32,469 bases of DNA from a virus, in the IMG/VR virus record IMGVR_UViG_3300005747_001283, positions 1-32,469 of that record. One strand, given 5' to 3'. Shown here piece by piece: positions 4,930-28,903 of this stretch. The notes beneath the pieces were generated by a model. The model had not been told where the DNA came from. It searched no databases and worked only from the letters and a program-made list of their open reading frames with translations. The first letter of the stretch is position 1. Each line of letters begins with the position of its first letter. Position numbers and translations under genes: made by a program.

Positions 4930-5790
4930 ATGTCTGACACTATCAGAGTTGGATCAAGACAATCACCCTTAGCCATCATTCAGGCCCAAGATGCTGTATC
5001 CAAGATAGATTATCCTGCAGACATTGTGACCATGTTGGAAATTGCTGACCAAGACCTCAGCAGACCCGTGCATGAAATGGGAGGCAAAGGCATGTTCTGT
5101 ACCAAACTGGAACAGGCACTGCTGAACAATCAAATTGACTGTGCTGTACACAGTGCAAAAGATTGTGCCACTCAAGAAACTGCTGGCACTGATCTGTTAG
5201 GAGTGATCTACACAGGCGATGCAAGAGACTGTGTGATAGGAGATCATGCTCTTGAAGATTTACCACCAGGTTCAATCATAGGAACTTCTGCACCCAGGAG
5301 AACCGAAGCCATCAAAATTATCAGACCCGATTGTGTGGTGATGCCAGTGAGAGGCAACATCAACACCAGACTGAACAAAATCAAAACAGGCGAAGTGGAT
5401 GCACTGATTCTGGGACACAGTGTGGTCGACAGAATGAAATTGGATGTGCCACATCATGTGATCGAAGAACACACAATCCTGCCAGCCGCCGGAGCAGGCA
5501 AGGTGGTGATACAGATTAGATCCAACAGTGACATGGCCAAAGCCACATGGTATCCTGCTGTGGATTTTTCTTCCACTCAGGAGTTGTGGATTGAGAGGGG
5601 AGTGTTGCGAGCCATAAATGGTGACTGTCACACGGCTGTGGGAGTGAGAGCTCGAGTCACACAACACAATGAACTTCAACTGCAAGCCATGTGTGTGCAG
5701 GACAATGAACTTAAATTTTTTCGATTGATTGGCAATCTATCAGATGCTCCTGCCATGATAGAAGAAATGGCTATCAAAATACTGCCTTGA
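4930..5790 (+). CDS. hemC: Hydroxymethylbilane synthase (porphobilinogen deaminase)
   Basis: HemC joins four porphobilinogen units into hydroxymethylbilane, the linear precursor of all tetrapyrroles. Family signatures are in order: RVGSRQSPLA (6-15), GGKGMF (51-56), AVHSAKD with the catalytic Asp78, GTSAPRR with substrate-binding Arg123/124, RGNINTRL (141-148), and GDC with Cys233 as the predicted attachment site of the dipyrromethane cofactor. At 286 aa it is slightly shorter than the usual 300-320, mainly after the cofactor Cys. The usual TRGD before the mobile loop reads EIAD. All key residues appear kept, so it is probably active. It lies on the plus strand between small phage genes, near 48% GC in a sampled stretch, well above its AT-rich surroundings. 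No ribosome binding site is seen; a 6-base inverted repeat (4905-4921) precedes the ATG. Confidence 0.95.
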   Translation: MSDTIRVGSRQSPLAIIQAQDAVSKIDYPADIVTMLEIADQDLSRPVHEMGGKGMFCTKLEQALLNNQIDCAVHSAKDCATQETAGTDLLGVIYTGDARDCVIGDHALEDLPPGSIIGTSAPRRTEAIKIIRPDCVVMPVRGNINTRLNKIKTGEVDALILGHSVVDRMKLDVPHHVIEEHTILPAAGAGKVVIQIRSNSDMAKATWYPAVDFSSTQELWIERGVLRAINGDCHTAVGVRARVTQHNELQLQAMCVQDNELKFFRLIGNLSDAPAMIEEMAIKILP

Positions 5791-7252: not shown

Positions 7253-8713
7253 CTACTGATCGTTATCATCCAAGTTGGTTAAAAATTCTCTCAACTTGGT
7301 TGAATCTGTTTTGGGCTGTATTCTTCCTATGCTGTCACCTTTTGTAGGGTCTGGCGGAGTTATTGGTTTTCCTGCTTCTACACTGTTGTCTGTGTTTTCG
7401 GGTGTAACTTTTGATCCTTGTTTGATAGATTGGAATATTGTGCTCTTGCGTTTGTCAAATTCCTGGTACTCGGAATCATCTGCAAGATCTCTTATTCTTA
7501 AACTATCTAAATCAAATTCTAAATCAATTTTCATTCCTACTCCACTAGATGATCTTGTTTTCATAAGTTGTATTTGATATCTTCCACGTTCTCTCATTGC
7601 TCTAGATGTGAATATACCAAACACATTATCAGCAGTTTGTATTTTACTTAATCCTCCCGATATGTGCGAATGATCAAACTCTATTTCTTCAACAGCACCT
7701 CTGTTTAATTGTGCGGCTGTGACAAACACTGTGTTCAATTCCATTGCTAGATTACGCAGTTCCTCAGATACAAATTTGTCTTTGATAAACAAATCACTTG
7801 GAGAAACTTTTCTACTGTTGGGCATCATAAGATCCAAATAATCTACAAGCAATACATCAACCTTGCTGTTTGTTTTTATTTCATATTCTTTGATATATGA
7901 TCTGATATCGTTTGCGTTTTTACCACTTGGCATGTATTTGATCTGAAACTTTCCTGCTTTTTTACCAATCATTTTAACTTTCATCTCTACACCATCTAAG
8001 TCTTTAAAAATCTCTTTAGTAGGAATATCAGTTAGCATTGAATCTATTCTCATACTGACCAATGGTTCACTTAATTCGAATGTTAGATAAACCACATTCA
8101 AACCTTCTAATGCCCAATTGCAACCTAAGTTAGCAAGGAATAAACTTTTACCTGCACCAGATCCACCTGCAAAAATATTCAATTCTCCTTTGTTGAATCC
8201 ACCAAATAATCTTTTGTCTAAACTTTCCCAGCCTGTTTTTACTTGACCATTTTGATCTTTTAATCCTAGCAGTCTACCTTTAGGATCTTCAAAGTAATCT
8301 GTTCCTATGTCTTTGTGTAATCCAATCTGTACAGCGTCTTTGACCAACACTTCAACAGGACCATATTCACCTTTTTCTAACATGTCTGCTGATTTTAGTA
8401 TTGCTCTTTCTAAACTTTTGTGTCTAACAAATGTTTCAAAATCATCTAACAACCAATCAAAGTGTTGTTCGTTTAGTCCTGTGGGAATTTCTAAGTCTGA
8501 TTTACAACTAGAATTTACAATGTCTTGTGTAGGAAGTGCATTGTGTTTAGTCACATATTCATTTACGAATTGTGCGGCATCTTGTAATCTTCTATCAAAC
8601 AATGTGTGATCAAATATAGATTGACAACGCACAAATGTTTCTGCATTGCTCAACATCATTTCAAGATATACTTTTTGTATATCGTATCCGTATTCTTTGT
8701 TTTGTTTAGACAT
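7253..8713 (-). CDS. 41: Replicative DNA helicase, T4 gp41-like
   Basis: DnaB-family 5'-3' hexameric helicase that unwinds DNA at the phage fork together with primase. From the ATG at 8713 it is 486 aa. Residues 1-150 are an N-terminal helical domain. The RecA-like core follows, with Walker A GGSGAGKS (183-190), Walker B LLVDYLD (288-294) and a Gln-rich motif (TAAQLNRGAVEE) typical of DnaB motif H4. The C-terminus is a charged tail with Pro/Thr/Asp. A longer frame to 8779 would overlap the carbamoyltransferase gene and its own promoter, so 8713 is preferred. The start lies 7 bases from a consensus -10 box, so the mRNA is probably leaderless. Confidence 0.93.
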   Translation of the reverse strand: MSKQNKEYGYDIQKVYLEMMLSNAETFVRCQSIFDHTLFDRRLQDAAQFVNEYVTKHNALPTQDIVNSSCKSDLEIPTGLNEQHFDWLLDDFETFVRHKSLERAILKSADMLEKGEYGPVEVLVKDAVQIGLHKDIGTDYFEDPKGRLLGLKDQNGQVKTGWESLDKRLFGGFNKGELNIFAGGSGAGKSLFLANLGCNWALEGLNVVYLTFELSEPLVSMRIDSMLTDIPTKEIFKDLDGVEMKVKMIGKKAGKFQIKYMPSGKNANDIRSYIKEYEIKTNSKVDVLLVDYLDLMMPNSRKVSPSDLFIKDKFVSEELRNLAMELNTVFVTAAQLNRGAVEEIEFDHSHISGGLSKIQTADNVFGIFTSRAMRERGRYQIQLMKTRSSSGVGMKIDLEFDLDSLRIRDLADDSEYQEFDKRKSTIFQSIKQGSKVTPENTDNSVEAGKPITPPDPTKGDSIGRIQPKTDSTKLREFLTNLDDNDQ

Positions 8714-9704
8714 TGTTGTTATTATACCACATTTTGTCAGAGTTGTCAATGTGCTTGTTGTATTTGGCACACACAGCACCTATGCATGACCCAGGATCTC
8801 CTGGATTCTTTGGCACCCATATATCATCCCAAACTGATTCCAATTTGGTTCTAGCAGTTCTATTCAACGCACAACCTCCTACTAGAATAATGTTCTGTGT
8901 TGGTATGTTCATTTGTACCCAAGAACTGGCACACATCAAAGTTTGTTCAAAAATGTGTTGGGTTGTTGCCGCCAAGTCTGCCAAATCTTCTTCAGAATTT
9001 AATTCTGGTCTCCACCAATTACAACCTCTGTGTAAATTTTCTCTTGTTTTAAAAGGCATTCTGGTTTTAATAATTTCTTCCATCATTATTCTATGATATT
9101 TTCTCCAGTTGCCCTTTTGTGCTAACTGTTCTAGTTTGTATTCTTCTGCGTTGGCTTTGAATCCACATCTTTGAGTCATTGCTGAATAAAATAAACCAAT
9201 ACTGTGCGGATATCGTTGACTGTATTTCTTTTCCAGTTTATCACCATGACCATGCCATATTGTGTATGTTTCAAACTCACCAATTGAATCTAGCACAATC
9301 ACTGCGGCATTTTTGTAAGGAGATGAATAATATCCATAAGCCGCATGACTGTGATGATGATCCATATATTCTATAGGCACGTGTATACCTTGTCTTTGTA
9401 AAAACTTCTTAACATTGTTTTCTTTAAATGTCCAACCTTGTCCTGCTGTCAATTGACGCACTGATTTTTTGAAAGGTTTTTCATACCAAATAATTTTTGC
9501 CGGATGAGCCCATCTGGCATTGGATCTCACATGGGCCAGCATTTCTGGACATAGATTTGGATCACCAGGTACTCCACTAAAGTCTGAACTCTTACCTGCC
9601 CAGTGTAGGTATAATCCGTATTTGTCTGTCAGACCTTTTACGTGATATTCCATGACTGCCAAACTGGCATCATGATTATTTCCTGTTATTCCCCAAACTA
9701 TCAT
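8706..9704 (-). CDS. Short NodU/CmcH-type carbamoyltransferase (N-terminal domain only)
   Basis: The fold is the Kae1-like ATP-grasping domain of O-carbamoyltransferases such as NodU and TobZ, which move a carbamoyl group from carbamoyl phosphate to a sugar or antibiotic hydroxyl. Visible motifs are WGITGNNHDASLAV (4-17), the metal-binding DHHHSHAAYG (115-124), LDSIGEFET (138-146), GFKANAEEYKL (181-191) and LVGGCALN (274-281), then PGDPGSCIGA. At 332 aa it lacks the ~200-residue C-terminal domain of full-length family members, so it could be a stand-alone adenylation module or depend on a partner. It overlaps its upstream neighbour (ATGA at 9701-9704) and ends 8 bases inside the helicase gene. 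A sugar substrate would fit the glycan genes elsewhere in the window. Confidence 0.8.
   Translation of the reverse strand: MIVWGITGNNHDASLAVMEYHVKGLTDKYGLYLHWAGKSSDFSGVPGDPNLCPEMLAHVRSNARWAHPAKIIWYEKPFKKSVRQLTAGQGWTFKENNVKKFLQRQGIHVPIEYMDHHHSHAAYGYYSSPYKNAAVIVLDSIGEFETYTIWHGHGDKLEKKYSQRYPHSIGLFYSAMTQRCGFKANAEEYKLEQLAQKGNWRKYHRIMMEEIIKTRMPFKTRENLHRGCNWWRPELNSEEDLADLAATTQHIFEQTLMCASSWVQMNIPTQNIILVGGCALNRTARTKLESVWDDIWVPKNPGDPGSCIGAVCAKYNKHIDNSDKMWYNNNNV
8721..8749 (-). promoter_or_regulatory. Consensus sigma70-type promoter of the helicase gene
   Basis: Minus-strand TTGACA (8749-8744) and TATAAT (8726-8721) are 17 bases apart. Only 7 bases separate the -10 box from the helicase ATG at 8713, so transcription should begin at or within a base or two of the start codon. 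The promoter lies inside the 3' end of the carbamoyltransferase coding sequence. Confidence 0.8.
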
Positions 9705-12231: not shown

Positions 12232-12798
12232 TTATTTTTTATCTTTTTGAATTTGTTCACAGATAAGATTCATGTGAACCACTACTGCTACTGCATATGA
12301 AACTGCATGAGCTTTTTTAAAATAATAACCTTCAGATGGTTTAGTCCATACTTCATTCATTATGGTGTCCCAGTCTTTGTTTAGCAAATATCTTTTGCTT
12401 GGTCTTATTATTGCCAATACTGCCGCTAATTGTTTGATATTTTTTGGTTTTAGTGTTTTTAATATTTCGTTGTGTCCGTTTAAATGAAACACTTGATCGC
12501 TGAAATCTTTCGCTTCTAATAATTCCCACACAGGTTCGATATTCATTAAAGTCTCAAGATGTTTTTCGTCACGCACTTTGTCATAGATACTTACATTCAA
12601 TAAATCAATTTTAAAATATCCACGTTCCTCTGCTTGTTTATAATTGAGTGTACTCACATTGTCTAACGGGTTGTGGGGAACTTCTGTGAAGTACACACCA
12701 GTATTGTGTTTTTTACCTGTGTCTAGTTTGGCAATTCTGTGCTTTAACTTTTCTAACAATATATTTCTGTCTGCAAAATCTATATCTATATCAAACAT
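12232..12798 (-). CDS. Miniature DNA polymerase III alpha (DnaE)-like protein
   Basis: At 188 aa it lines up in order with scattered core segments of bacterial DnaE (over 1,100 aa). FDIDIDFADR (2-11) matches the PDxDxDF catalytic strand. KKHNTGVYF (29-37) matches the KHAGGVV segment. YFKIDLLNVSIYD (61-73) matches KFDFLGL with the third catalytic Asp (Asp65). VFHLNGHNEILKTLKP (103-118) matches VFQLESRGMKDLIKRLQP, and VLAIIRP (127-133) matches VALFRPG. KKAHAVSYAV (161-170) matches NKSHSAAYAL. The three acidic catalytic residues are present, but the PHP, thumb, most of the fingers, and the beta-binding and OB domains are absent. It overlaps rpiB by 8 bases. It may be a small nucleotidyltransferase, a non-catalytic subunit, or a decoy; activity is not shown. 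Confidence 0.7.
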   Translation of the reverse strand: MFDIDIDFADRNILLEKLKHRIAKLDTGKKHNTGVYFTEVPHNPLDNVSTLNYKQAEERGYFKIDLLNVSIYDKVRDEKHLETLMNIEPVWELLEAKDFSDQVFHLNGHNEILKTLKPKNIKQLAAVLAIIRPSKRYLLNKDWDTIMNEVWTKPSEGYYFKKAHAVSYAVAVVVHMNLICEQIQKDKK

Positions 12799-13255
12799 TT
12801 CTAATCAGTCCTAATTTTTTTACTCTTCTTGTGTGTCTACCTTTTTCAAAATTGGTTTTAAAAAATGCTTCTATCATATGTTTTGCATGATTGAAATCTG
12901 TGTAGTCTGCACCAATACATAATACATTCATATCGTTGTGTTGTCTAGCCTGTTCCACATCAAAGACGTCAAAACATACTACCGCTCTTGCTTTTGAAAA
13001 TCTGTTTGCCTGGATAGCCATACCAAAACCGCTTCCACATATCAAAATACCTTGATCAAATACACTCATATTTTCACCAACTTTTACAGCAATGTCATTG
13101 TAATCAATTCTTTTTGGCTTGTATGTACCAGCATCTTGAAATACTGCAATGTCAAATTTACTATCACATTCTGAGTCAATCGGACACAACCATGTTGATA
13201 TTTTTTCTTTTAATTCGAAACCTCTATGATCCGATCCTATTATTACATCACGCAT
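12791..13255 (-). CDS. rpiB: Ribose-5-phosphate isomerase B
   Basis: RpiB interconverts ribose-5-phosphate and ribulose-5-phosphate in the pentose phosphate pathway, which could supply nucleotide precursors during phage growth. The family signature is clear: GSDHRGFELKEKI with Asp9/His10, ILICGSGFGMAIQANRF with the catalytic Cys73, ARQHNDMNVLCIGA with His96, and FEKGRHTRRV near the C-terminus for phosphate binding. Length (154 aa) is normal for the family (about 145-155). It overlaps nth by 8 bases and the DnaE-like gene by 8 bases, so it is in a tight operon. It could alternatively act on a related sugar phosphate (LacA/LacB family). Confidence 0.92.
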   Translation of the reverse strand: MRDVIIGSDHRGFELKEKISTWLCPIDSECDSKFDIAVFQDAGTYKPKRIDYNDIAVKVGENMSVFDQGILICGSGFGMAIQANRFSKARAVVCFDVFDVEQARQHNDMNVLCIGADYTDFNHAKHMIEAFFKTNFEKGRHTRRVKKLGLIRNV

Positions 13256-13928
13256 TTATGACCTCTCTTAATTTTGATTTTGGAGTATTAATATTTCTTT
13301 TTTCACAAATAGATTCAAGCACACACAAATCGCATCTAGGAGATTTCGATGTACACACTCTTTTGGCATGAGTAATCAACTGCATGTGTGCGGCGTATTT
13401 GTATTTGTCAGGTGTAGTGTCATTTACAATCACAGCACTTTTGCTTTCATCTAAACTGTCAGTCCAACCCAGTCTCCAAAGTAACCTAAACACGTGAGTA
13501 TCAACTGCTATGTTAGGCGCTCCCCAAACGAATCTCATCACTATGTCAGAACTTTTTCTTCCTACGCCCGGCAATGACATTAATTCTTTTTGTGTTTGTG
13601 GCACTTTGCCTTTGAAAGTTTCTAGAAGCATTTTACTGGTTGCGAGTATATTTTTACTTTTTGCTTGAAATAATCCTGCTGGTCTTATTGCTTCTATTAT
13701 TTTTTCTTGTGATAATTTTAACATTTTTTCTGGTGTGTCGGCTAATGCGAATAATTGTTTGCAGGCAACAGCAGTTCTGGCATCTTGACTTTGTGCTGAT
13801 AACATAACTCCTATTAGACTGGTATAAGCCTTTTTGTGTATTTTTGCCGCAGGTTTTTTATTTGCATATTTGGGCCAATATTGACCTAGTTGTTCATATA
13901 GAAAAGTAATTTGTTCTTGAGTTTTCAT
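13248..13928 (-). CDS. nth: Endonuclease III, DNA glycosylase/AP lyase
   Basis: Removes oxidised pyrimidines and nicks the abasic site. The helix-hairpin-helix LPGVGRKSSDIVM holds the catalytic Lys125, and VDTHVFRLLWRLGW holds Asp143. The four cysteines of the [4Fe-4S] loop are at 192, 199, 202 and 208 in the spacing C-x6-C-x2-C-x5-C. Full length (226 aa) is normal for Nth. It overlaps its neighbours on both sides by 4-8 bases. Known T4-like repair uses DenV; an Nth homologue instead suggests acquisition from a bacterium. The basic C-terminus lies beyond the Fe-S loop. Confidence 0.93.
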   Translation of the reverse strand: MKTQEQITFLYEQLGQYWPKYANKKPAAKIHKKAYTSLIGVMLSAQSQDARTAVACKQLFALADTPEKMLKLSQEKIIEAIRPAGLFQAKSKNILATSKMLLETFKGKVPQTQKELMSLPGVGRKSSDIVMRFVWGAPNIAVDTHVFRLLWRLGWTDSLDESKSAVIVNDTTPDKYKYAAHMQLITHAKRVCTSKSPRCDLCVLESICEKRNINTPKSKLREVINA

Positions 13929-18574: not shown

Positions 18575-18603
18575 ATTATAATGGATTTTGGTTAAAAAGT
18601 CAA
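18575..18603 (-). promoter_or_regulatory. Consensus sigma70-type promoter of the UvsW unit
   Basis: Minus-strand TTGACT (18603-18598) and TATAAT (18580-18575) are 17 bases apart. The ATG at 18568 lies 6 bases beyond the -10 box. The -35 box is in the last codons of the upstream glycan gene. The tightly overlapping genes from 18568 down to 12232 would all be read from here. Confidence 0.8.
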
Positions 18604-19425
18604 TCGTGAAAAAGGAATGCCTTGTGCTATTTCTTCAATAGTCCACTCTGTATGTGTGTAATCGTTGAGCCATTGCTGTCTATCAGGGGTCTTTGGGCTG
18701 TTAATGGTGCTGAAATCTGTGTTTCCAACATCGTATGCTAGACTTTGTTCACCCACAAACGCAGGTACGCCATTCAATACAGCATGTATGCCTGGGTTAC
18801 TGCTGTGGCTGACAACTGCCCAAGCATTGGAAAAATTTAAGTCAAAATCATCATATGTGTTTGCAATTTGTTTTGGAACTTCGTAACTGACATTTTCTAA
18901 TATAGGTGGATTTTGTAATGGACATCTTGGATGAGATCTCACAATTATTTTTCTATCTGTGTGTTGTCTTATTTCTTGCACAGTGTTTTCGACGTATCTA
19001 GGTAGTGCAGGCATATTGGCCCACTGTTCACTTTTGTCGTGTTGTAGACACAGTAATATGTGTTCGCCTTGATTGCGCCAAGGACGCAAAGTTACATCTA
19101 ATTTTTTTGCTCTTGCATCATCATTATTTTTAGGACCAAAGTCTCCTGATCTATTGATACCGTTTATACCCACTTTCCATGTGTGATTTCTTTTGATTCC
19201 GCCCACTTCTAAAACTAAGACATTTTTATTTTGTTGTCTGAAATGACTCCATATGGATTTGTTGCCAGACATTCTGCCATGCCAAAGCAATGACCAAATG
19301 ACAGGAATGTCACAGTGATCATCAATAACCACAGTGTGTCCTAATGCAGTTAGTCCTTTTTGTACAGCATCAAACACAGGTTTGCTGTTTAATGATCCAT
19401 GTTTGCGGTAAAGTCCAAATTTCAT
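18592..19425 (-). CDS. Capsule-synthesis/Kdo-transferase-like protein, paralogue A
   Basis: From the ATG at 19425 (MKFGLYRKHGSL) the product is 277 aa; the open frame extends upstream, but this start is preferred because the extension overlaps the divergent gene. It shares segments with two other genes here: ILLCLQ, HTDRKIIVRSHP, NPGIHAVLNGVPAFV and TEWTIEEIAQG. The pattern of R-x-HP followed by an HSSNPG-x-x-A-x-x-GVPAF motif resembles GT-B-like capsule enzymes such as KpsC/KpsS. It probably transfers a sugar or modifies surface glycan. No signal peptide or membrane segment is seen, so it is cytoplasmic. Donor and acceptor are unknown. Confidence 0.65.
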   Translation of the reverse strand: MKFGLYRKHGSLNSKPVFDAVQKGLTALGHTVVIDDHCDIPVIWSLLWHGRMSGNKSIWSHFRQQNKNVLVLEVGGIKRNHTWKVGINGINRSGDFGPKNNDDARAKKLDVTLRPWRNQGEHILLCLQHDKSEQWANMPALPRYVENTVQEIRQHTDRKIIVRSHPRCPLQNPPILENVSYEVPKQIANTYDDFDLNFSNAWAVVSHSSNPGIHAVLNGVPAFVGEQSLAYDVGNTDFSTINSPKTPDRQQWLNDYTHTEWTIEEIAQGIPFSRLTF

Positions 19426-19426
19426 T

Positions 19427-19440
19427 GTAAATACATTTAT
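19427..19440. promoter_or_regulatory. Overlapping late-type boxes between divergent genes
   Basis: The 16-base gap 19426-19441 between genes starting at 19425 (minus) and 19442 (plus) holds GTAAATAC on the plus strand (19427-19434) and ATAAATG on the minus strand (19440-19434). Each is 8 bases from its start codon. Both are imperfect matches to the late -10 element, so the call is tentative. Confidence 0.35.
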
Positions 19441-19441
19441 T

Positions 19442-20269
19442 ATGACCAAATATTCTGTTGTTACCACATTTAACCAAAAAGGTTATGATGTGTACGCAAA
19501 TAAATTTATCAAAAGTTTCAACGACAAAGTGGATAATAGAATTCCCCTCACAGTGTATGCAGAAGATTGTTCTCCCACAGGAGATTCAAGAACACTGATT
19601 TTTGATGCAAAACAATCACTGGATAAATTGAACACATTCAAGCAAAAGTGGGGTTCGATACCAAAAGCCAATGGCAAGTGTCCACCAGAAATCAAAGCCA
19701 GAAGACCCAAAGATTGGCACAAAGAATTCAAATGGGACGCAATTAGATTTTCAAACAAAGTGTATGCCATATTTCACGAAGCCCGACGCACAGATGCTGA
19801 CATACTGATATGGATGGATGCCGACAGCATTGTTCACAGCACAGTCACGCAGAAAGATTTTGAAAGAATGCTACCTTCATCTTTTGATATTCATTATCTA
19901 GGAAGAGGAAAAAAATGGCCAGAGTGTGGATTTTATGGAATGAATTTACGTTCTTCAATGTGTCAAGATTTTCTAAAACAATTCGAACAAATGTACGATG
20001 ATGCAGAAAAAGGAATATTTACATTAGATGAATGGCATGATTCTTTCGTGTTTGATGCTGTATTAAAAAGACACAAACAAAAATTTCCTACCAGTGCTAT
20101 TAAAGATTTTAGTGGACATCTTATAAGTGGAGAAGGACATCCATTAATAAATTGTGAATTAGGAGCATACTTCGATCATCTAAAAGGCGACAGTAGAAAA
20201 GCAAAAGGAAAAAGTTTGTCTACTGATTTAAAAATTACTCGGGTTGAGAACTACTGGAAGCAGGTTTAG
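19442..20269 (+). CDS. Glycosyltransferase, GT-A type with DxD motif
   Basis: This 275-aa protein starts with a strand typical of GT-A enzymes (MTKYSVVTTFNQKGYDVYA). It has the metal-binding ILIWMDADSIVH with DxD at Asp126/Asp128, then GFYGMNL and DEWHDSFVFD, which could bind the acceptor and donor phosphate. It transfers a sugar from a nucleotide sugar, with unknown specificity. It is the only plus-strand gene in the glycan region, and its 3' end overlaps the convergent paralogue B by 35 bases. Confidence 0.8.
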   Translation: MTKYSVVTTFNQKGYDVYANKFIKSFNDKVDNRIPLTVYAEDCSPTGDSRTLIFDAKQSLDKLNTFKQKWGSIPKANGKCPPEIKARRPKDWHKEFKWDAIRFSNKVYAIFHEARRTDADILIWMDADSIVHSTVTQKDFERMLPSSFDIHYLGRGKKWPECGFYGMNLRSSMCQDFLKQFEQMYDDAEKGIFTLDEWHDSFVFDAVLKRHKQKFPTSAIKDFSGHLISGEGHPLINCELGAYFDHLKGDSRKAKGKSLSTDLKITRVENYWKQV

Positions 20270-21215
20270 TGGCCCATTTTCTCATGTGAAGCCAACATTT
20301 TCCTCGTTTCACTTCATCCAAAGTCCAATGCATCTGAGCCAGTCTTTCTACAAATAGTTGCCTATCGAAATCTTTATGATCTTCAATTTCATTGAAAGAA
20401 TGATGAGAAACTGTGCTGGATTGAGCATTGACGGGATCTGTTAGGAAAGTAGGAATACCTTCAATCACGCTGGCACAAGTCGGACTGCTGTTATGTCCTA
20501 CTAAAGAGTGTGCTGTATAAAAATCTTCTTCCAGTCCTCTAGTGGCACTTATAAAAATATCTTTGAACACTCCAGGATCTCTTTTTGACCAATTGGCAAT
20601 GGCTTGTCTGTGTTGGGCTGTATTTTTATCACCGGGATGAAATCTAATCAATATTGATCTGTCAGTTCTCATTCTTAATTCTGTGATAACGTATTGTAGC
20701 CAGTCTTGCACTGATCTTCCGTCCATGCTCCAACCGCCGTCACGTTGACAGCAAACCAATATGTGTCCGTCTTTTTGATTCAATCTCCAAGGTTTTAATT
20801 CAATGTTTAAATCTTTGCTTATAATTTTCCATCTTTCTGGACTAGGAGTATTGTTACAGTATTCTGCTGTGTGTGGAAAAATGCCATCATATCCATATCT
20901 TAGATAGCCTCTAGTCTGTGCAGGATCTTTCCACAGAAACAAACTGCTGTCCACTATGATACAACGTTTATTTTTCCGTATTTGATTTTCATAAATTTCT
21001 TTACGCAGATTTAAATGAGTACTGTTTTTACTGTTTTTATGAACAAACCCTTGTATAACTGCCACATCTGCATCAATCACAGATCGTGAACTTGTTACCA
21101 TGCCTTTGTCACCGCAACGATTGACACCTTCGATAAAATTTCTAATGATCATAGGCTTTTGTGGATTTTTATTTCCAGGAGGTATCACTTTCATGTATGC
21201 AATTACTGAAATCAT
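20235..21215 (-). CDS. Capsule-synthesis-like protein, paralogue B
   Basis: At 326 aa this is the longest of the three paralogues. It begins MISVIAYMKVIPPGNKNP. Shared blocks include DGHILVCCQRDGGW, RTDRSILIRFHPGD, LVGHNSSPTCASVIEGIPTF and MHWTLDEVKRGK, in the same order as in paralogue A. The RFHPGD and SS-x-x-x-A-x-x-EGIPTF elements match the nucleotide-sugar side of KpsC/KpsS-like and other GT-B enzymes. Its ATG overlaps the stop of paralogue C as ATGA (21212-21215). The Ser-rich C-terminus (KPASSSSQPE) is unusual. Likely a cytoplasmic glycan-modifying enzyme. Confidence 0.65.
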   Translation of the reverse strand: MISVIAYMKVIPPGNKNPQKPMIIRNFIEGVNRCGDKGMVTSSRSVIDADVAVIQGFVHKNSKNSTHLNLRKEIYENQIRKNKRCIIVDSSLFLWKDPAQTRGYLRYGYDGIFPHTAEYCNNTPSPERWKIISKDLNIELKPWRLNQKDGHILVCCQRDGGWSMDGRSVQDWLQYVITELRMRTDRSILIRFHPGDKNTAQHRQAIANWSKRDPGVFKDIFISATRGLEEDFYTAHSLVGHNSSPTCASVIEGIPTFLTDPVNAQSSTVSHHSFNEIEDHKDFDRQLFVERLAQMHWTLDEVKRGKCWLHMRKWATKPASSSSQPE

Positions 21216-22006
21216 TTTAAATCATATTCCTTCATAATCTTCATTGCGATACCGTGTTCCAATTCAAAAGGAGTGTATTGACAATAGGATAACCATTTTA
21301 ACCAATGTCTCACTTGATCTGGATTTGGTCTGTAAGGCTGTTCTATTCTTGACAAATCCTTCAATGTAACATGATCTGCGGCTGTGGGTGCAGTAGCAAA
21401 TGCTGGAACACCGTGGCACACTGATTCAATTGCCGCGATAGACTGATAGGTCACCACAGCGTAGACATTGTCATTATCCAATTGTGCAAATAAATTGTTA
21501 CCGCCCACACGCTCTCTCCTTAATCCTTTATCTCGGATTATGATCGGTCTATCTGTGTGTTGTTTTAATTTTGCAGTGGTTTCATCAATCCATTGTTGTC
21601 TTGTGATACCATAAAACTTGCAAGGTTTTTCTGATGGTGTTACTAACAGAATACTTCTTCCTGCTGGTTTCCAACCATTAAAATTAATTTCTGGATGACG
21701 CTGAGAAAATCTAAGAAACCTGTCTTCTGGAACTTCTCTTATCTGAGTGTGTTGCACATTGTTTTTTACTAATCTATGATAATGTTTTCTTTTCACAAGA
21801 TTACCAACATATCCAGTGTCTATGTAATAAAAATCTCTATGTGTCCGCCAACATTCATGTATTATTTTTCCTTTGGTCATGCCTCGCAATACAACTGGAT
21901 TATTAATGGGAGACTGTTTGACTGTGTTCCAGACACCATATTCTGATTGGGTGCCTTTCATAAAATCTCCTATGATAGCGTCTTCGTGATCAAGTGCGTA
22001 GATCAT
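21212..22006 (-). CDS. Capsule-synthesis-like protein, paralogue C
   Basis: At 264 aa it keeps GRSILLVTPSEKPC, HTDRPIIIRDKG, YQSIAAIESVCHGVPAF and QYTPFELEHGIA in the order seen in paralogues A and B, but it has lost the His-Pro after the Arg (RDKG in place of RSHP/RFHP). That may mean altered or lost catalysis. It is coupled to paralogue B by ATGA. A TATAAA lies 7 bases upstream of the ATG, the same spacing as the leaderless promoters elsewhere, but with no convincing -35 box. Confidence 0.6.
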   Translation of the reverse strand: MIYALDHEDAIIGDFMKGTQSEYGVWNTVKQSPINNPVVLRGMTKGKIIHECWRTHRDFYYIDTGYVGNLVKRKHYHRLVKNNVQHTQIREVPEDRFLRFSQRHPEINFNGWKPAGRSILLVTPSEKPCKFYGITRQQWIDETTAKLKQHTDRPIIIRDKGLRRERVGGNNLFAQLDNDNVYAVVTYQSIAAIESVCHGVPAFATAPTAADHVTLKDLSRIEQPYRPNPDQVRHWLKWLSYCQYTPFELEHGIAMKIMKEYDLK

Positions 22007-22194: not shown

Positions 22195-22890
22195 TTATTC
22201 TCCTTTCTTTTTGTTATTCATCATTGAGTTTAAGTAATCTTTCCAAACATCACCGTATTCACAGTTACGATAATTTTTGAACCAAGGGCCGCCTTCTGTG
22301 TAGTGCAAGGCTTTTGGCTCACCATCTTGTGGAGACTGATACCATCCCACAAGCCAATTCCAAGTGTGATCCAGCGAACCTATTTCTTCGTCTTTCAGCC
22401 AACTGAATCGATGAAAGTATGCTCCATCATAATTGGGATTGTTTACTAAATCCACTGTTAATTTTTCGTTTGATTTATGTCCACAGTTGTACAGCACAAC
22501 AGAACTCCAATTTTTTCTTGGATACACAGTTTGTTTTTGTCCATCCATTTTTATTCCCGGCTTAGGAGTATAATCGTGTTTGACGCACATCACAGCATAC
22601 TTGTCATCTGCTTGATCAAATAATTTTTTTATATCTTCTATGAAAACAATATCCGAATCGCAAAACAGTGCCCAACCTTTATAATTTTCTAATGCTGGTA
22701 TTAAGAATCTTGTGAATGTAAATTCTGTTGATCCTAGGTTGTCCAAACCTCTCCAGTACCATTTATCCTGGCGTAATTTTTGTTGGTTTAATGGCACAAT
22801 TTCTGCGTCAGTGTTTTTAGAAAGGATTGAGTGCTCACACACTTGATAAGTGATATCTTCTCTTGTATCATATCCTATAAAAATCTTCAT
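22195..22890 (-). CDS. Glycosyltransferase, GT8-like
   Basis: The N-terminus MKIFIGYDTREDITYQVCEH is typical of phage and bacterial GT8-like enzymes. The metal-binding WALFCDSDIVF carries DxD at Asp78/Asp80. A later His in ALHYTEGGPWF fits the family's C-terminal metal ligand. It transfers a hexose from a nucleotide sugar with retention of configuration; donor unknown. Its ATG shares one base with the stop of the epimerase gene (TAATG at 22888-22892). It ends in a lysine-rich tail. Confidence 0.85.
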   Translation of the reverse strand: MKIFIGYDTREDITYQVCEHSILSKNTDAEIVPLNQQKLRQDKWYWRGLDNLGSTEFTFTRFLIPALENYKGWALFCDSDIVFIEDIKKLFDQADDKYAVMCVKHDYTPKPGIKMDGQKQTVYPRKNWSSVVLYNCGHKSNEKLTVDLVNNPNYDGAYFHRFSWLKDEEIGSLDHTWNWLVGWYQSPQDGEPKALHYTEGGPWFKNYRNCEYGDVWKDYLNSMMNNKKKGE

Positions 22891-23612
22891 TATACTTGTA
22901 ATTTAACCTCAAATCCGTTTTCATCTAGGAACTTCTGAACCGTCCATTTAGGTTTCCATCCTAATTTTTTCATTGCCGTGGGATCTGCTTGGGAGTGTTG
23001 TCTCTCTAAAATAGATCCTTTTTTCATTGGCAAATTGGGTGCTATATCTTTAACATAGACTGATTCTCCTGTACCTATATCAATTGATCCTGTAAACGTG
23101 CTGTCCATTAAAATTGTTATTGCTTCGCAAACATCTTCTATGTGTACAAAATCTCTGCTGTGGTCTGTTACGTACTCTAAAGTCCCCATGAGCAGTCTAT
23201 CAAAGAACATGCCTTTTCTATTTGTTGCACCATACACTGTGTGAAATCTCATTGCCACACTGTTGTTGTGAGGGATTTTTTCTATTATGTGTTTAGATGC
23301 GGCATAAGGATTTAGCCACGGTTCATATTGTGTGCTTGAACTTGCAAACAATACTCTTTGATTTTTATAATGTTTTAAAATTTTTTGTGTGGCAATAACG
23401 TTGTTATCCCAATATTGTTTTGGATTTTCCATTGATTGTCTTACCCCACCTATGCCTGCGAGATGAATCACAAGGTCAACGTCTGGTAGCGGAGAAGTTA
23501 AAATATTTTTTTTGTCTAAGAGATCGATGCCAATCACTAGGTGATCAATTGACAGCATTTTTAACAAGTGCTGTCCTATAAATCCTCTATGTCCTGTGAG
23601 CAAAATTTTCAT
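22890..23612 (-). CDS. NAD-dependent sugar epimerase/dehydratase (extended SDR)
   Basis: The Rossmann motif TGHRGFIG (6-13) binds NAD(P). LVIHLAGIGG is the usual second strand, then SSS (91-93) and the catalytic YAASK with Tyr103 and Lys107. DFVHIEDV follows, as in UDP-glucose 4-epimerase and GDP-sugar relatives. At 240 aa it is shorter than the usual 300-330, mainly in the substrate domain, so substrate range may be narrow. It provides a nucleotide sugar for the neighbouring glycosyltransferase. It is the first gene downstream of a consensus promoter, 10 bases from the -10 box. Confidence 0.88.
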   Translation of the reverse strand: MKILLTGHRGFIGQHLLKMLSIDHLVIGIDLLDKKNILTSPLPDVDLVIHLAGIGGVRQSMENPKQYWDNNVIATQKILKHYKNQRVLFASSSTQYEPWLNPYAASKHIIEKIPHNNSVAMRFHTVYGATNRKGMFFDRLLMGTLEYVTDHSRDFVHIEDVCEAITILMDSTFTGSIDIGTGESVYVKDIAPNLPMKKGSILERQHSQADPTAMKKLGWKPKWTVQKFLDENGFEVKLQV

Positions 23613-23622
23613 TATGCTTTTT

Positions 23623-23651
23623 AGTATAAACTAAATGGTCTAATTTGTCAA
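23623..23651 (-). promoter_or_regulatory. Consensus sigma70-type promoter of the epimerase unit
   Basis: Minus-strand TTGACA (23651-23646) and TATACT (23628-23623) are 17 bases apart. The epimerase ATG at 23612 lies 10 bases past the -10 box, so the leader would be about 3-4 bases. It lies in the 42-base gap after the cupin gene. Confidence 0.8.
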
Positions 23652-23654
23652 CAA

Positions 23655-24005
23655 TTAGGATTTCGTTCCAATTGTTCGACGTTGAATGTCATCGTGATTG
23701 AACTCTGCCCAATACAGTTCAAAAGCCACACCGTCTTCTACACCTTCAAACTGATGAAATTTTCCCGGCTTAACTGTGGTATAATCTCCTGCTTCTAACA
23801 CAGTTTCATCAACCAATCCAGTTTGTTCTGCATCTTGCCATACTCTAACGATCATTTTACCAGACTCAACAAAAAATCCATTCCACTTGTATTTGTGTTG
23901 ATGTTCTGAGCATTTGTATCCTGCTTTAAACTCAATACGATGGAATTCCAAAACACCGTTGGCATGTATCAATTCTGTTTTGCCCCAAACTTTTCCTGCT
24001 TTCAT
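23655..24005 (-). CDS. Cupin-domain protein
   Basis: The ATG at 24005 is chosen because it overlaps the methyltransferase stop as ATGA (24002-24005). The 116-aa product is one cupin barrel, with the metal motif SEHQHKYKWNGFFVESGK (His35, His37) and the second motif VKPGKFHQF with His84. It resembles the C-terminal cupin half of mannose-6-phosphate isomerase/GDP-mannose pyrophosphorylase proteins and small sugar isomerases. It could isomerise or bind a sugar phosphate for the cluster. The substrate is not determined by the sequence. Confidence 0.75.
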   Translation of the reverse strand: MKAGKVWGKTELIHANGVLEFHRIEFKAGYKCSEHQHKYKWNGFFVESGKMIVRVWQDAEQTGLVDETVLEAGDYTTVKPGKFHQFEGVEDGVAFELYWAEFNHDDIQRRTIGTKS

Positions 24006-24616
24006 TTCTTGCTTCTTCCACAAAAGTAAAATTGTTTTGTGTCAAATTCACTTTCTATTTCATCTGGATAAACTCTATCAATTGATTCTACAATAAAGTG
24101 TTTTTCTAAAGTTTTTAGCACATTAGAAACCGTTCTGTATTTGGAACTGTAATTAGATTTTAGTTTATCTGAATACACATTCACATATTCGTCTTCATTT
24201 TTAAGCGTACAAGGTGTTCGTAAAAACAATTTTTTTGTGTTTAAAGATGCATAAATTTTTTCTATAACTTCGTCTTCGAAAATAAATGGCAACATTCCGG
24301 CACAAATTATATTATCTACTGCTGGCAGTGTGTTTAAATTATCTTCATATACATTAAAGTTTCGTGTTTGTACTTTATTATTTAAATTTTTTATTAAATG
24401 TGTTGCGAAATCATATCCGTGATATTGATTGAAGTCCGTAAGTTCGACCAAACAATTTAGCAATGCTCCGTCACCACAGCCTAAATCAAGTAAAGAATCT
24501 CCTGAAAGTCTAGGAACAAGGTACTGTAATTCATGTAAACGTCTTTGTTTTATTGTACCGTACTCTGGATATGATTTTTGTGCGGTCCAGAATTCTTTAG
24601 CAACACTCTTACTCAT
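24002..24616 (-). CDS. SAM-dependent methyltransferase, class I
   Basis: The SAM-binding motif SLLDLGCGDGALL lies at residues 41-53 of 204. The N-terminus (EFWTAQKSYPEYGTIKQRRL) resembles small-molecule and sugar methyltransferases. The remaining motifs are present but weak. It overlaps the FkbM gene by 8 bases and the cupin by 4. In a glycan cluster the likely target is a sugar hydroxyl or amine; protein targets cannot be excluded. Confidence 0.78.
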   Translation of the reverse strand: MSKSVAKEFWTAQKSYPEYGTIKQRRLHELQYLVPRLSGDSLLDLGCGDGALLNCLVELTDFNQYHGYDFATHLIKNLNNKVQTRNFNVYEDNLNTLPAVDNIICAGMLPFIFEDEVIEKIYASLNTKKLFLRTPCTLKNEDEYVNVYSDKLKSNYSSKYRTVSNVLKTLEKHFIVESIDRVYPDEIESEFDTKQFYFCGRSKK

Positions 24617-25367
24617 ACGAAACGTCCTTGTGTTTGTATGCTCTATCTCTGTGAAATTCTTTGTATACTTCGTAGCCTAAGTCTGTCATAAGGGTAGCAA
24701 TTTTATCATCAGTCCACCCGTATTTTCCACCAGACTGATTCCATTCAACAACTATAAGAGGTTTTGCTCTTTTTATTGTTTCTGTTGCACCAACGATTGT
24801 TTCCCACTCAGAGCCTTCTATATCTAAATGAATACAATCTGGATCAACTCCTAATGAATCTAGTTTAATTTTAGGTATATCACCGTTTGGTTCTATATAG
24901 TTTGCTCCTAAATTTTTACGTCCTTTAAAATCAGGTGCAACCATTTTTACAGGATCGTTATCATTGCCTAATGCAGTTTGAAATTTAAACACATTTGTTT
25001 CAGGACAGTTATTGATTAGGCACACAAACCATCTGTGGTCTGGTTCAAATGTAATTACTTTTTCAAACATTGTGCTGTAAAGTTTTGGATAAAGTCCTGC
25101 ATTACCACCTGCTTGAATTATTAATTTTCTTTTGTTTTGTGGTAACATTTTTATTATTTCATTTGGAAAATGAATAATGTTTGGAGAGCCGTCACTCCAA
25201 GCCGCTCTTTCATTTTTATGGAAAAATTCCCAAGTTAATATATCTTCTCTGGGCCATAACCATTCTCCTTGCATGTATGGTCCTGCTCTATATTCTAAAT
25301 TGTTTGCATTTAAAAAATCGTTTGTTCTTTTAATCGAATCTACTGGGTATATAAATTTATTTTTCAT
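24609..25367 (-). CDS. FkbM-family methyltransferase
   Basis: FkbM-type enzymes O-methylate sugars and polyketides. Visible motifs: LIIQAGGNAGLYP (82-94) for SAM binding, VITFEPDHRWF (104-114), ALGNDND (132-138) and the characteristic HLDIEGSEWETIVGA (180-194). Length (252 aa) suits the family. It overlaps the next methyltransferase by 4 bases (ATGA at 25364-25367). It likely methylates a sugar of the phage-directed glycan. Confidence 0.88.
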   Translation of the reverse strand: MKNKFIYPVDSIKRTNDFLNANNLEYRAGPYMQGEWLWPREDILTWEFFHKNERAAWSDGSPNIIHFPNEIIKMLPQNKRKLIIQAGGNAGLYPKLYSTMFEKVITFEPDHRWFVCLINNCPETNVFKFQTALGNDNDPVKMVAPDFKGRKNLGANYIEPNGDIPKIKLDSLGVDPDCIHLDIEGSEWETIVGATETIKRAKPLIVVEWNQSGGKYGWTDDKIATLMTDLGYEVYKEFHRDRAYKHKDVSYE

Positions 25368-25951
25368 TTTGAATCTATTGTGTTAGTTCCTGCGTTCCAA
25401 ATCTGTGTTACTGGTTCAATATTGTCTTTGTGTTCTATTTTTTTAGCCGCAAACCAAAGTAAAACATCGTTTGTTGCCCACTTTCCTTTATTTGCGTCTG
25501 CAACATTATTTATGGCCCAACCTTTTTTATGACTTAGATATGAATCCAATAATTCAAAACCATTTTTTTTAATAAATGTTGTAATTGCAACAGGATCTGT
25601 AACGTGTATACCGTGTCGCCAATAACCATGTACAGGACTTACACCTATGAAGTGTCCACCAACTTTTACTAATTTAAGTGCGTTACTCCAAGCCGTGTGG
25701 GCGTCCCATATATGTTCTATTGTGCCAAGGTTAAAAACGGTTTCAAATTTTTGATGTAAGTGAGTCAAGTTTCCAGTTAAATCTGAATAGTCTCCACCAT
25801 CTGGATCTATAGTTTTATAATCGTCAACTTTAAAATATTCTTTAGGACTAATTGTCATGTTAGTTGCTTGATTCCCTAACATCAAAAAAGGACTTTTGTA
25901 ATACGCTCTGTACTTTTCATAATTTTTAAGATGTTTGTTTATTATTGTCAT
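25364..25951 (-). CDS. Methyltransferase-like protein, type 11
   Basis: From the ATG at 25951 (ATGA overlap with the previous gene; a TTG two codons upstream is less likely) the product is 195 aa. FETVFNLGTIEHIWD and ALKLVKVGGHFIGVSPVHGY are the later core motifs of class I methyltransferases. The N-terminal glycine-rich SAM motif is degenerate (FLMLGNQATNM). It may use another mode of SAM binding, or be inactive. The following HGIHV resembles sugar-acting relatives. It is embedded in the glycan operon. Confidence 0.65.
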   Translation of the reverse strand: MTIINKHLKNYEKYRAYYKSPFLMLGNQATNMTISPKEYFKVDDYKTIDPDGGDYSDLTGNLTHLHQKFETVFNLGTIEHIWDAHTAWSNALKLVKVGGHFIGVSPVHGYWRHGIHVTDPVAITTFIKKNGFELLDSYLSHKKGWAINNVADANKGKWATNDVLLWFAAKKIEHKDNIEPVTQIWNAGTNTIDSK

Positions 25952-26595
25952 ATCCAATATTTTTTTACTAACGGGTTATCTTTTTGCAAATGAGGTTTCT
26001 TAGATCTGCCTGCGTATATGGTAAACACAGGTGAAGGAAGAGGATCTTTTTGTTCAATCATGTGATGTTGCCAATTGATAAATTGTCCGACTTCGTCGTC
26101 CATAAATTTCATATTTGTTAAAGATGCCTGTGTGTATGCTTGGTCTCCTATTAAGTTTCCTTTGTGATATTTAGACATTATTGCTTGAGTATTACGTTGA
26201 AAATTTTCGTAGACAAAAGAATAATCACCTTGCCAACTCATTATACTGCTATTTGCATTACCGCTTGTTGGATTTACACTCTTAATCATATAAAAATTTT
26301 TGTAATCTAATTTGTCTAAAATATGTTCAAAATTATTACAAATAATAATATCTAAATCCAAATAAAATACAGGACCATTAAACAAATTAGGCCTGAACAA
26401 TTCAACTTTACTCCACCATCCTAACCAATTATGTTTTAATGGAATTGTTGCAATAGGAAGATTTACATTTGATAAGCAACTAAACTGATGCGGCTTTTTG
26501 TAGTTTCTTGCGATCATATTTTTTAATTTTAAAACGTAATCGTGTGAATATGTAGTTCTTTTGTTTCGTTGATACACACATACAAAATTAATCAT
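25948..26595 (-). CDS. Glycosyltransferase with DxD motif
   Basis: The ATG at 26595 (MINFVCVYQRNKRTTYS) is chosen; one 15 bases upstream is possible. GPVFYLDLDIII holds DxD at Asp80/Asp82 on a GT-A strand, preceded by HNWLGWWSKVELFRP, a pattern frequent in phage-encoded GT-A enzymes. The C-terminus (FTIYAGRSKKPHL) lacks a second clear motif. It overlaps the cytidylyltransferase fusion by 8 bases. The donor sugar is unknown. Confidence 0.75.
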   Translation of the reverse strand: MINFVCVYQRNKRTTYSHDYVLKLKNMIARNYKKPHQFSCLSNVNLPIATIPLKHNWLGWWSKVELFRPNLFNGPVFYLDLDIIICNNFEHILDKLDYKNFYMIKSVNPTSGNANSSIMSWQGDYSFVYENFQRNTQAIMSKYHKGNLIGDQAYTQASLTNMKFMDDEVGQFINWQHHMIEQKDPLPSPVFTIYAGRSKKPHLQKDNPLVKKYWI

Positions 26596-27577
26596 CGGAG
26601 TTCCATTCATTACAACTGTATACTGAATTAGGATAGAACCTAATATTATTTTTGTTCACTAAATTTTTTATAAAACTTTGCAAGTCAAAGTTTTCATTAA
26701 TATCATTTATTGAAATAGGCAAGTTTACGATATAATATGGAGGCTTATGCCAAGTTTCACCACTTGGTATTTTTATATTATTTTTTACAGCATTAATAAT
26801 ATCTGTGTGAGTATATTTTTTAAATTCTATACGTTCACCATCAGGAATAGAAAATTCACTTAAACGTGTGATTTGATTATTCTTTTTGAAATGGACATTG
26901 TTTGTTAAAAATATATCTTTGTATGGTATACACAAACAAGGAATAAATTTAAATCCTAATTCTTTCATTGCTTGTAATCTATTGTTTCCATCTACAACAA
27001 TTTGTAAATCTTCATGAATACCTATTGTGATAGGGTTGAAAAATATTTTTTCTTTTACTATTTTTTCTTTAAGTTTGGTTACTTTTTCATCATCAAAATC
27101 TTCATAAATTTTAAGTTTTTCAATTGGCAATATCTTTAAATTGTTAATGTGTTCTAAATCTTTTCTATCATCATGAATAATTCTTTGTTTTATTTCCGTG
27201 CTAGAAATTCCATCTGTTCTTGGAAATAGCATTAGTCTTATATTTTGTTCTTTTAAGTATAATAATGCGTTTGTACGGTCTCCACTGTGTACATAATCGT
27301 CTCCTTGTACAACTACGTTTGGTTTAATTTTAGACCACAACTCTCTTTGATCAACATCACTGTACTTGACTATTTCATCTACAAAAGGTAATGCTTTTAC
27401 CTGTTTTTCTCTTTCTTCAAAATTTAGTGTAGGATAATTTCCTTTAGACTTCTTAACTGATTCGTCATCTTGTATGCCAACAATTAAATAATCACCTTGT
27501 TGTTTTGCTCTTGTTAAAATGTTAATGTGTCCTAGGTGGAGTGTGTCAAAAACTCCTGATGTCATTACTTTAATCAT
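26588..27577 (-). CDS. Cytidylyltransferase fused to a ParB/SerK-like domain
   Basis: Residues 1-140 are a TagD-type cytidylyltransferase: TSGVFDTLHLGHINIL with HLGH (14-17) and RTDGISSTEI (120-129), the CTP-binding signatures. Residues 145-329 look like a ParB/sulfiredoxin-fold domain: LKILPIEKLKIYEDFDDEKV (147-166), IVVDGNNRLQAMKELG (193-208), then YTHTDIINAV and PSGETWH near 255-277. That second set of motifs recalls the free-serine kinases SerK/SbnI more than DNA-partition ParB. Inference: one polypeptide could phosphorylate a small alcohol or amino acid and activate it as a CDP derivative. The ATG at 27577 (MIKVMTSG) is chosen over one 69 bases upstream because it overlaps the preceding gene by only 8 bases. 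Confidence 0.75.
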   Translation of the reverse strand: MIKVMTSGVFDTLHLGHINILTRAKQQGDYLIVGIQDDESVKKSKGNYPTLNFEEREKQVKALPFVDEIVKYSDVDQRELWSKIKPNVVVQGDDYVHSGDRTNALLYLKEQNIRLMLFPRTDGISSTEIKQRIIHDDRKDLEHINNLKILPIEKLKIYEDFDDEKVTKLKEKIVKEKIFFNPITIGIHEDLQIVVDGNNRLQAMKELGFKFIPCLCIPYKDIFLTNNVHFKKNNQITRLSEFSIPDGERIEFKKYTHTDIINAVKNNIKIPSGETWHKPPYYIVNLPISINDINENFDLQSFIKNLVNKNNIRFYPNSVYSCNEWNSDD

Positions 27578-28196
27578 TTTTCTTCCAATAAGTTTTCCAT
27601 TTTTGCACTTCATCGGGTTTGTCGAAATCATCTGTTTCGTCATCAATATTGGTCCAATTTGTGTTGCAAATGTATTGAGTTCTTTTGACAGTTTTACGTT
27701 GTGGCGGTGAATTCAAATTCCATTTTCCCGAATGATATGCGTATAGGTCCCAAGACCAACATCGATTTATTTTCTTGTCCCAAAAGGCTTTGCACACTAA
27801 TTTTAACCAGTGCCAAAACGTGTCATCGCTTTTAAATGCCCAAAATTCTCCATATTTTTTCAATGCATTTCCTTTCGCACGTCCATAATAGTTTGTTGTG
27901 CCATTAAGAATTGTTTTAATTGCATTTTCAGAATAATAAACATCTCCATATAACCATATATTACCTTTTAGTTCTTCACAACCTAACAAGCAACCTAAAT
28001 CGTTGCCTTTCATAGTGTTTACAAATTCATTATATTGAGGATACATTCCTTTTTGGGCCACAGTTACCCAAATATCATTTTGCCCATTTTCTTTTAGAAG
28101 TCGCACAGTTCTATCAACTAACTTTTCACCTTGTACAGTGATAGAGTGTCTATTAAAACTTTTTGCAGTTCCCCCAGCCATAATGATTATTCTCAT
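27570..28196 (-). CDS. Nucleotidyltransferase, MobA-like NTP transferase fold
   Basis: The N-terminus MRIIIMAGGTAKSF carries the GG-x nucleotide-binding loop, though the usual Gly-x-Gly-x-Arg is partly replaced. NIWLYGDVYYSE (79-90) holds the metal-binding Asp85. At 208 aa it is close to MobA-like enzymes and to sugar-phosphate or amino-acid cytidylyltransferases. In front of a cytidylyltransferase fusion and behind a glycosyltransferase, it may activate a sugar phosphate. It overlaps the downstream gene by 8 bases and the upstream one by 4. Confidence 0.7.
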   Translation of the reverse strand: MRIIIMAGGTAKSFNRHSITVQGEKLVDRTVRLLKENGQNDIWVTVAQKGMYPQYNEFVNTMKGNDLGCLLGCEELKGNIWLYGDVYYSENAIKTILNGTTNYYGRAKGNALKKYGEFWAFKSDDTFWHWLKLVCKAFWDKKINRCWSWDLYAYHSGKWNLNSPPQRKTVKRTQYICNTNWTNIDDETDDFDKPDEVQKWKTYWKKND

Positions 28197-28903
28197 ACAT
28201 CTATCCTTGTGTAACTGTTCATACTTTTTTTACTTTTGTCTAACCAGTACTTTGGATTGATTCTGCACAAACTGTATTTGGTTTTAGTTAGTGCTACAGA
28301 CTGTACATTAACATGAACATCTGCCGGAAGTACACCTTTGTTTTTAGCAAAGTCTATTAATGATTTTGCACCTTGTGGTTTTATTATGTAGGCATGAAGA
28401 CCTTTTATACACTCTTTGTCGTAATAATGAAATCCACTTTTAAAAGTGTGTGCTTGTGTTTTGGGTTGATGTGCGATAACATCATAATTTTCAAACAGTT
28501 TTAAATGATCTTCGTAAACTTTAGAAGTTCTGCTGTAAGCATCAAGATTGCACAGTTCTGAAAATTTGTTCACAATGTCTTTAGGTATAGGACGTATGAA
28601 TAATGCATCATGTTCTAGTATCATTATTGGTTCATTCAGTTCAATACATTTTAACCATAGTAAATAGTGTGAACAGAAACAACCTCTTACACCTTTTGTG
28701 TCTCTAGATTTTTTTAGTTTGGGAAATGGTCGCAAATTTAATTTTTTATAGACAGGAGCAACATCGTCTAGATGTACAGCATCAAATTTTTCAATATTGA
28801 TGTTAAATTTTTTTCCAGATGCAATACAATCCTTGGACAGTTCTTCCGAAAAAGATCTGCCTTTCATTGTTATTACATAGGCTTTATGATCATAATGTTG
28901 CAT
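28193..28903 (-). CDS. Glycosyltransferase, GT25-like (LPS type)
   Basis: The signature KGVRGCFCSHYLLWLKCIE (70-88) followed by EPIMILEHDALF (91-102) is typical of GT25 lipooligosaccharide glycosyltransferases. The N-terminus HKAYVITMKGR fits the first GT25 strand. A later HAYIIKPQGAKSLI segment is also usual. The protein is 236 aa, a common length. It overlaps the UvsY-like gene by 14 bases, tying the glycan cluster to the recombination genes. It probably extends a surface glycan. Confidence 0.85.
   Translation of the reverse strand: MQHYDHKAYVITMKGRSFSEELSKDCIASGKKFNINIEKFDAVHLDDVAPVYKKLNLRPFPKLKKSRDTKGVRGCFCSHYLLWLKCIELNEPIMILEHDALFIRPIPKDIVNKFSELCNLDAYSRTSKVYEDHLKLFENYDVIAHQPKTQAHTFKSGFHYYDKECIKGLHAYIIKPQGAKSLIDFAKNKGVLPADVHVNVQSVALTKTKYSLCRINPKYWLDKSKKSMNSYTRIDV

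Follow-up and report, generated by a model that had tools for sequence, protein, structure and literature searches.

A predicted nucleotidyltransferase-kinase fusion protein encoded in the glycan cluster of a marine jumbo-type phage

The stretch of DNA analyzed here, called the window below, is a virus record of 32,469 bases from IMG/VR (IMGVR_UViG_3300005747_001283). Between positions 26588 and 27577 its minus strand carries an intact open reading frame of 329 residues, and the plus strand of the same interval is full of stops. The source of this gene is a marine jumbo-type phage, and the gene lies within a cluster of glycan genes. Its product joins a nucleotidyltransferase domain to a domain resembling the small-molecule kinases SerK and SbnI, and is probably a bifunctional small-molecule kinase/cytidylyltransferase, for which we infer the activity, substrate, order of steps, channelling and acceptor as set out below. 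The gene and its parts are as follows.

26588..27577, minus strand: the fusion gene, 329 residues from ATG to stop
27176..27577, minus strand: domain 1 (residues 1-134), a HIGH-superfamily nucleotidyl(cytidylyl)transferase, from PF01467, PDB relatives and alignment
27527..27538, minus strand: HLGH (residues 14-17), the HxGH nucleotide-binding motif, aligned with H14/H17 of TagD and invariant in the phage copies
27197..27220, minus strand: RTDGISST (residues 120-127), from alignment with TagD, ethanolamine-phosphate cytidylyltransferase (ECT) and HldE
27140..27175, minus strand: a short linker (residues 135-146) between the two family matches
26591..27139, minus strand: domain 2 (residues 147-329), a SerK/SbnI-like kinase domain of the ParB/sulfiredoxin (Srx) fold, from profiles, hhalign, a structure model and Foldseek
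27101..27103, minus strand: E159, the putative catalytic base, aligned with SerK E30 and SbnI E20 and invariant in the seven phage copies
26978..26992, minus strand: DGNNR (residues 196-200), corresponding to DGHHR in SerK and DGVHR in SbnI
26747..26767, minus strand: PSGETWH (residues 271-277), corresponding to PKTTRH in SerK and PAGVTRF in SbnI, with R replaced by W

The motifs that a first-pass annotation of this DNA had named (HLGH, RTDGISST, DGNNR, TH and PSGETWH) are all present in the reading frame, TH at residues 256-257. The search for the same fusion in other phages that it proposed finds it within a single lineage: six more contigs of IMG/VR, which fall into two sub-lineages of a single phage group, carry the fused frame in full (81-92% identity), and it was not found in isolated phages (INPHARED, tblastn of domain 2, E<=1). 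Among the phage copies the ratio of nonsynonymous to synonymous substitution rates (dN/dS) is 0.02-0.2 in both domains, indicating purifying selection. The full-length copies in six contigs and the low dN/dS rule out a frameshift or an assembly artefact as the origin of the fusion.

Where a TagD-type cytidine triphosphate (CTP) transferase had been placed, in residues 1-140, CTP_transf_like (PF01467) matches residues 6-132, with E=2.9e-19 and 70 bits against a cut-off of 21. The solved proteins nearest to domain 1 in the PDB are the ethanolamine-phosphate and glycerol-3-phosphate (TagD) cytidylyltransferases, and the RTxGIS motif is common to domain 1, TagD and ECT, whereas HldE lacks its RT. 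Domain 1 misses the equivalog cut-offs both of TagD (TIGR01518, 78 bits against 165) and of the HldE adenylyltransferase (TIGR02199, rfaE_dom_II, 91 bits against 181), so its substrate cannot be read from family membership. Judged by its residues, CTP is the likelier nucleotide, but these residues do not prove either CTP or glycerol-3-phosphate.

Domain 2 invites comparison with SerK, the free serine kinase of Thermococcus that depends on adenosine diphosphate (ADP; PDB 5x0b; PMC5120207), and with classical ParB proteins. Searched alone against NCBIfam, it matches SbnI (E=2.3e-9) and SerK (E=2.8e-9), followed by TIGR04285 Noc (4e-4) and TIGR00180 ParB (0.014); the SerK/SbnI equivalog cut-offs (NF053625, NF033589) are missed, at 37 bits against 380 and 350. 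A search of the PDB likewise returns SbnI (3e-6) and SerK (0.003), and these matches exceed chance. Comparison by hhalign with short stand-alone SerK-like proteins gives a probability of 98% (E=1.7e-13), and its 123 aligned columns extend to the C-terminal motif. An AlphaFold2 model of the domain built from a deeper alignment has pLDDT 84 and pTM 0.79; that alignment (A6) included SerK relatives but not SbnI, which leaves the model partly dependent on the former. In Foldseek the model matches SbnI with E=3.8e-12 and TMq 0.73-0.78, and SerK with E=7.7e-9 and TMq 0.61-0.67. The matches to SbnI and SerK by Foldseek and hhalign span the whole of domain 2, including its C-terminal subdomain.

The alternative that domain 2 is a passenger of the fusion, a ParB-type domain of the classical kind that binds DNA or acts as a nuclease, is very improbable. 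ParB-fold proteins do occur in many phages, and Pfam ParB_N does match domain 2 weakly (E=0.003-0.004, 17.5 of the 26.3 bits of its cut-off); near the top of a search of a viral structure library with the model there are only ParB-core matches. However, Foldseek matches to ParB, Noc and Srx have E>=2.5e-4 and TMq of about 0.33 over a core of ~78 residues only, and the ParB matches, by profile as by fold, are core-limited and many orders of magnitude weaker than those to SbnI and SerK. The canonical ParB motifs QPR and GERR read YED and DGNNR in the phage protein, and Pfam and NCBIfam profile searches found no helix-turn-helix family. On this fold and residue evidence a ParB identity was rejected. 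With a full-domain SbnI/SerK match and the catalytic Glu kept, the first-pass view of domain 2 as SerK/SbnI-like is upheld, and the outcome named there as refuting it, matches confined to classical ParB DNA-binding domains or to an unrelated fold, was not observed; as judged from sequence and predicted structure, the domain belongs to the free-serine-kinase (SerK/SbnI) family in the broad sense and is not a DNA-binding ParB.

The residues expected of such a kinase are largely in place. E159 occupies the position of SerK E30, for which E30A and E30Q mutants exist in PDB entries. The C-terminal P-x-G-x-T-x-H motif is also kept, its placement being taken from hhalign and from a split-piece alignment. 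An equivalence between SerK W102 and phage N227 was considered and dropped, because the deeper alignment places W102 near F230, ambiguously.

The middle residue of T-x-H departs from the family pattern. Nearly all relatives have R there (as do the sampled archaea, apart from a single K), and W was otherwise seen only in four proteins of Thermoproteota, whose kinase domain follows a MobA/CobY-like nucleotidyltransferase in the same chain (L146:4165-5025, L147, L148 and L149, from genomes G826, G956, G890 and G819, respectively). A cobA-type adenosyltransferase gene and cbiS adjoin the fusion in L146, L148 and L149, part of cbiS does so in L147, and a gene for CobD, threonine-phosphate decarboxylase, lies near the fusion in L146. 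In the cobamide pathway L-threonine is phosphorylated by a kinase, which in bacteria is PduX or BluE (PMC7242693). The archaeal CobY-SerK fusion is a candidate for a ParB/Srx-fold kinase that phosphorylates L-threonine in making the cobamide nucleotide loop. TWH may accordingly be the mark of a non-serine substrate, perhaps threonine; this is a lead and not a proof, because the four archaeal cases form one clade. Since threonine is the expected substrate of the TWH-bearing archaeal proteins, serine is not a safe guess for the phage protein.

The bacterial proteins closest to domain 2 are stand-alone and about 140 residues long. A CysK/SbnA homologue lies within the fetched locus in 34 of the 43 GTDB loci that hold the closest relatives (about 6 kb on each side for most), and annotated plasmid loci have SerK-like genes beside genes for ornithine cyclodeaminase and cysteine synthase. 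In an alphaproteobacterium (L097, genome G244), a minus-strand reading frame of 458 residues, read by eye, fuses a SerK-like kinase to a cysteine-synthase-like pyridoxal-phosphate domain. Based on these cysteine-synthase neighbours and on the L097 fusion, the relatives look like O-phosphoserine-type kinases. On an Agrobacterium vitis plasmid (L019), a SerK-like gene stands beside SbnA/SbnB-type genes and adjoins a phosphonate set (phosphoenolpyruvate mutase, cytidylyltransferase and CDP-alcohol phosphotransferase).

The economical reading of the fusion would be a kinase and then a cytidylyltransferase acting on the same small molecule. The C-terminal SerK/SbnI-type domain would bind ADP or ATP in its ParB/sulfiredoxin fold, and E159 would take the proton from the hydroxyl group of a small hydroxy compound, to which phosphate would then be transferred. 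Threonine, serine, a derivative of these or another amino acid or amino alcohol may be the acceptor. The N-terminal HIGH-type domain would couple the resulting phosphomonoester to CTP, yielding a CDP-linked unit and pyrophosphate, and a transferase of the cluster could place the moiety on a glycan of the phage or host surface. The idea of phosphorylation followed by CDP activation had been put forward in the first-pass annotation and fits both the domain anatomy and the glycan cluster; as to the substrate, TWH argues against assuming serine. The parallel drawn there with the glutamine-bearing capsule of Campylobacter extends to the likeness of logic and no further. A more specific version is tentative, and we consider it somewhat doubtful: that the enzyme phosphorylates a non-serine hydroxy amino acid or amino alcohol, of the threonine type as suggested by TWH, to make a CDP-linked block for glycan decoration, with an architecture, and possibly a metabolite, undescribed in any organism.

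The genes around the fusion bear on what could use such a unit.

27570..28196, minus strand: the upstream neighbour, a MobA-like, nucleoside triphosphate (NTP) transferase-like protein (weak PF12804 match, E=0.036), co-conserved
25948..26610, minus strand: the downstream neighbour, a phage glycosyltransferase (phrog_1962), co-conserved
22195..28903, minus strand: the glycan cluster, syntenic as a whole block in five contigs

The fusion gene shares 8 bases at its start with the upstream gene and 23 bases with the downstream gene, as is seen in compact operons. The cluster encodes a GT25 glycosyltransferase, the NTP transferase-like protein, the fusion, the neighbouring glycosyltransferase, three methyltransferase-like proteins (one of them FkbM), a cupin, an NAD epimerase and a GT8 glycosyltransferase. 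It is flanked in the window by T4-type replication genes, UvsY among them, and the nearest relatives of a UvsX/RecA-like protein in the window are in jumbo phages, such as Sinorhizobium phage Phosso, Agrobacterium phage Atu_ph07 and Vibrio phage 2.275.O.

Elsewhere in the window lie a phage-encoded hydroxymethylbilane synthase (HemC, porphobilinogen deaminase; 4930-5790, plus strand; PF01379, E=6.5e-54) and, on the minus strand, a protein with a carbamoyltransferase N-terminal domain (8706-9704; PF02543, E=7.7e-32), possibly a further modification enzyme. Also on the minus strand, a ribose-5-phosphate isomerase B-like gene (12791-13255; PF02502, E=2.6e-42) adjoins a gene that reads like endonuclease III (13248-13928). 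Three minus-strand proteins (18592-19467, 20235-21215 and 21212-22006), which by eye look related to one another, resemble GT-B or Kdo/capsule transferases and have no Pfam or PHROGs match; they are candidate users of the CDP-linked unit.

Several observations weigh against a kinase and cytidylyltransferase working in series. A Pfam search of the cluster genes, several of which have no assigned family, found no LicD, TagF-type protein or CDP-alcohol phosphotransferase, and the absence from the cluster of a nameable dedicated user of the CDP-linked unit is the main gap. In addition, domain 1 scores best in NCBIfam with the heptose-1-phosphate adenylyltransferase domain (rfaE_dom_II), the conserved R of the SerK T-R-H is W in all phage copies, leaving the basic residue absent, and when one archaeal SerK-like protein was assayed for binding, it bound CTP but not ATP (PMC12704722).

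The first of the latter points would suit a protein in which both domains are active but not sequential, domain 1 making a nucleoside diphosphate sugar from a sugar-1-phosphate in the manner of HldE and domain 2 making a separate phospho-metabolite. The rfaE_dom_II score exceeds that of TagD, both being under their cut-offs, related cyanophage genes adjoin heptose enzymes, and the neighbouring gene is a second NTP-transferase-like one. We nevertheless regard this arrangement as improbable: the RTxGIS of domain 1 is a TagD/ECT motif not found in HldE, no heptose kinase or isomerase turned up among the window genes searched, and fusions normally join consecutive steps.

The CTP binding of the archaeal protein makes a regulatory role of domain 2 possible, and the change of R to W in the C-terminal motif could mean that transfer chemistry has been lost. 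Domain 2 would then be a nucleotide-binding switch or regulator of domain 1, sensing CTP or ADP for example, that phosphorylates no metabolite. This seems unlikely, as no phage copy departs from the catalytic Glu, DGxxR or T-x-H, and the SerK/SbnI-specific C-terminal subdomain, which ParB switches lack, is kept. The consecutive kinase and cytidylyltransferase remains the preferred reading.

Phage glycerol-3-phosphate cytidylyltransferases are already known as auxiliary genes (PMC6918029, PMC11515562). No CTP_transf fusion was found among the kinase relatives from plasmids and GTDB contigs, nor in 385 alphaproteobacterial, 369 gammaproteobacterial and 200 Thermoproteota genomes; absence from the sampled genomes is not proof, because candidates were scored, or hits read, only in part. 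The main text of a 2025 survey of ParB-fold proteins names no cytidylyltransferase fusion, and a literature search for phosphoserine cytidylyltransferase with CDP-serine returned no paper. As far as these searches reach, the combination of a cytidylyltransferase with a SerK/SbnI-type kinase is new, each part being known. The kinases of the SerK fold form a young class, met so far mainly in the synthesis of cysteine and siderophores. If the proposed function is correct, the phage fusion extends this class to glycan precursor chemistry, and a single protein would open to phages a way to a phospho-decorated surface. Together with the archaeal CobY fusions, TRH versus TWH would offer a testable rule for substrate choice in the class.

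Among known systems, SbnI, the Staphylococcus O-phospho-L-serine synthase (PDB 5ujd, 5uje, 6nr6), is the best match in sequence and fold over the whole of domain 2, and its Glu20, DGxHR and PxGxT correspond to E159, DGNNR and PSGET. It is longer, however, keeps the R after T, has no fused nucleotidyltransferase and serves staphyloferrin B synthesis. SerK shares with domain 2 the fold, E30, DGHHR, P-x-x-T-x-H and the final H, but has KTTRH where the phage protein has GETWH, stands alone and acts in cysteine synthesis. TagD and ECT share HxGH and RTxGIS with domain 1 at 35-41% identity, but have no kinase domain, and R63 of TagD is P64 in domain 1. HldE also unites a kinase (for heptose-7-phosphate) and a HIGH-type nucleotidyltransferase (the heptose-1-phosphate adenylyltransferase) in one chain for glycan precursors. 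Its kinase is N-terminal and of the ribokinase fold, and it makes an ADP-sugar, whereas the phage kinase domain is C-terminal and of the ParB/Srx fold. The Thermoproteota CobY-SerK fusions share the order of domains, an N-terminal nucleotidyltransferase followed by a SerK-like kinase, as well as TWH, but their nucleotidyltransferase is of the MobA/CobY type, which has a different fold, and their setting is the cobamide nucleotide loop rather than a glycan.
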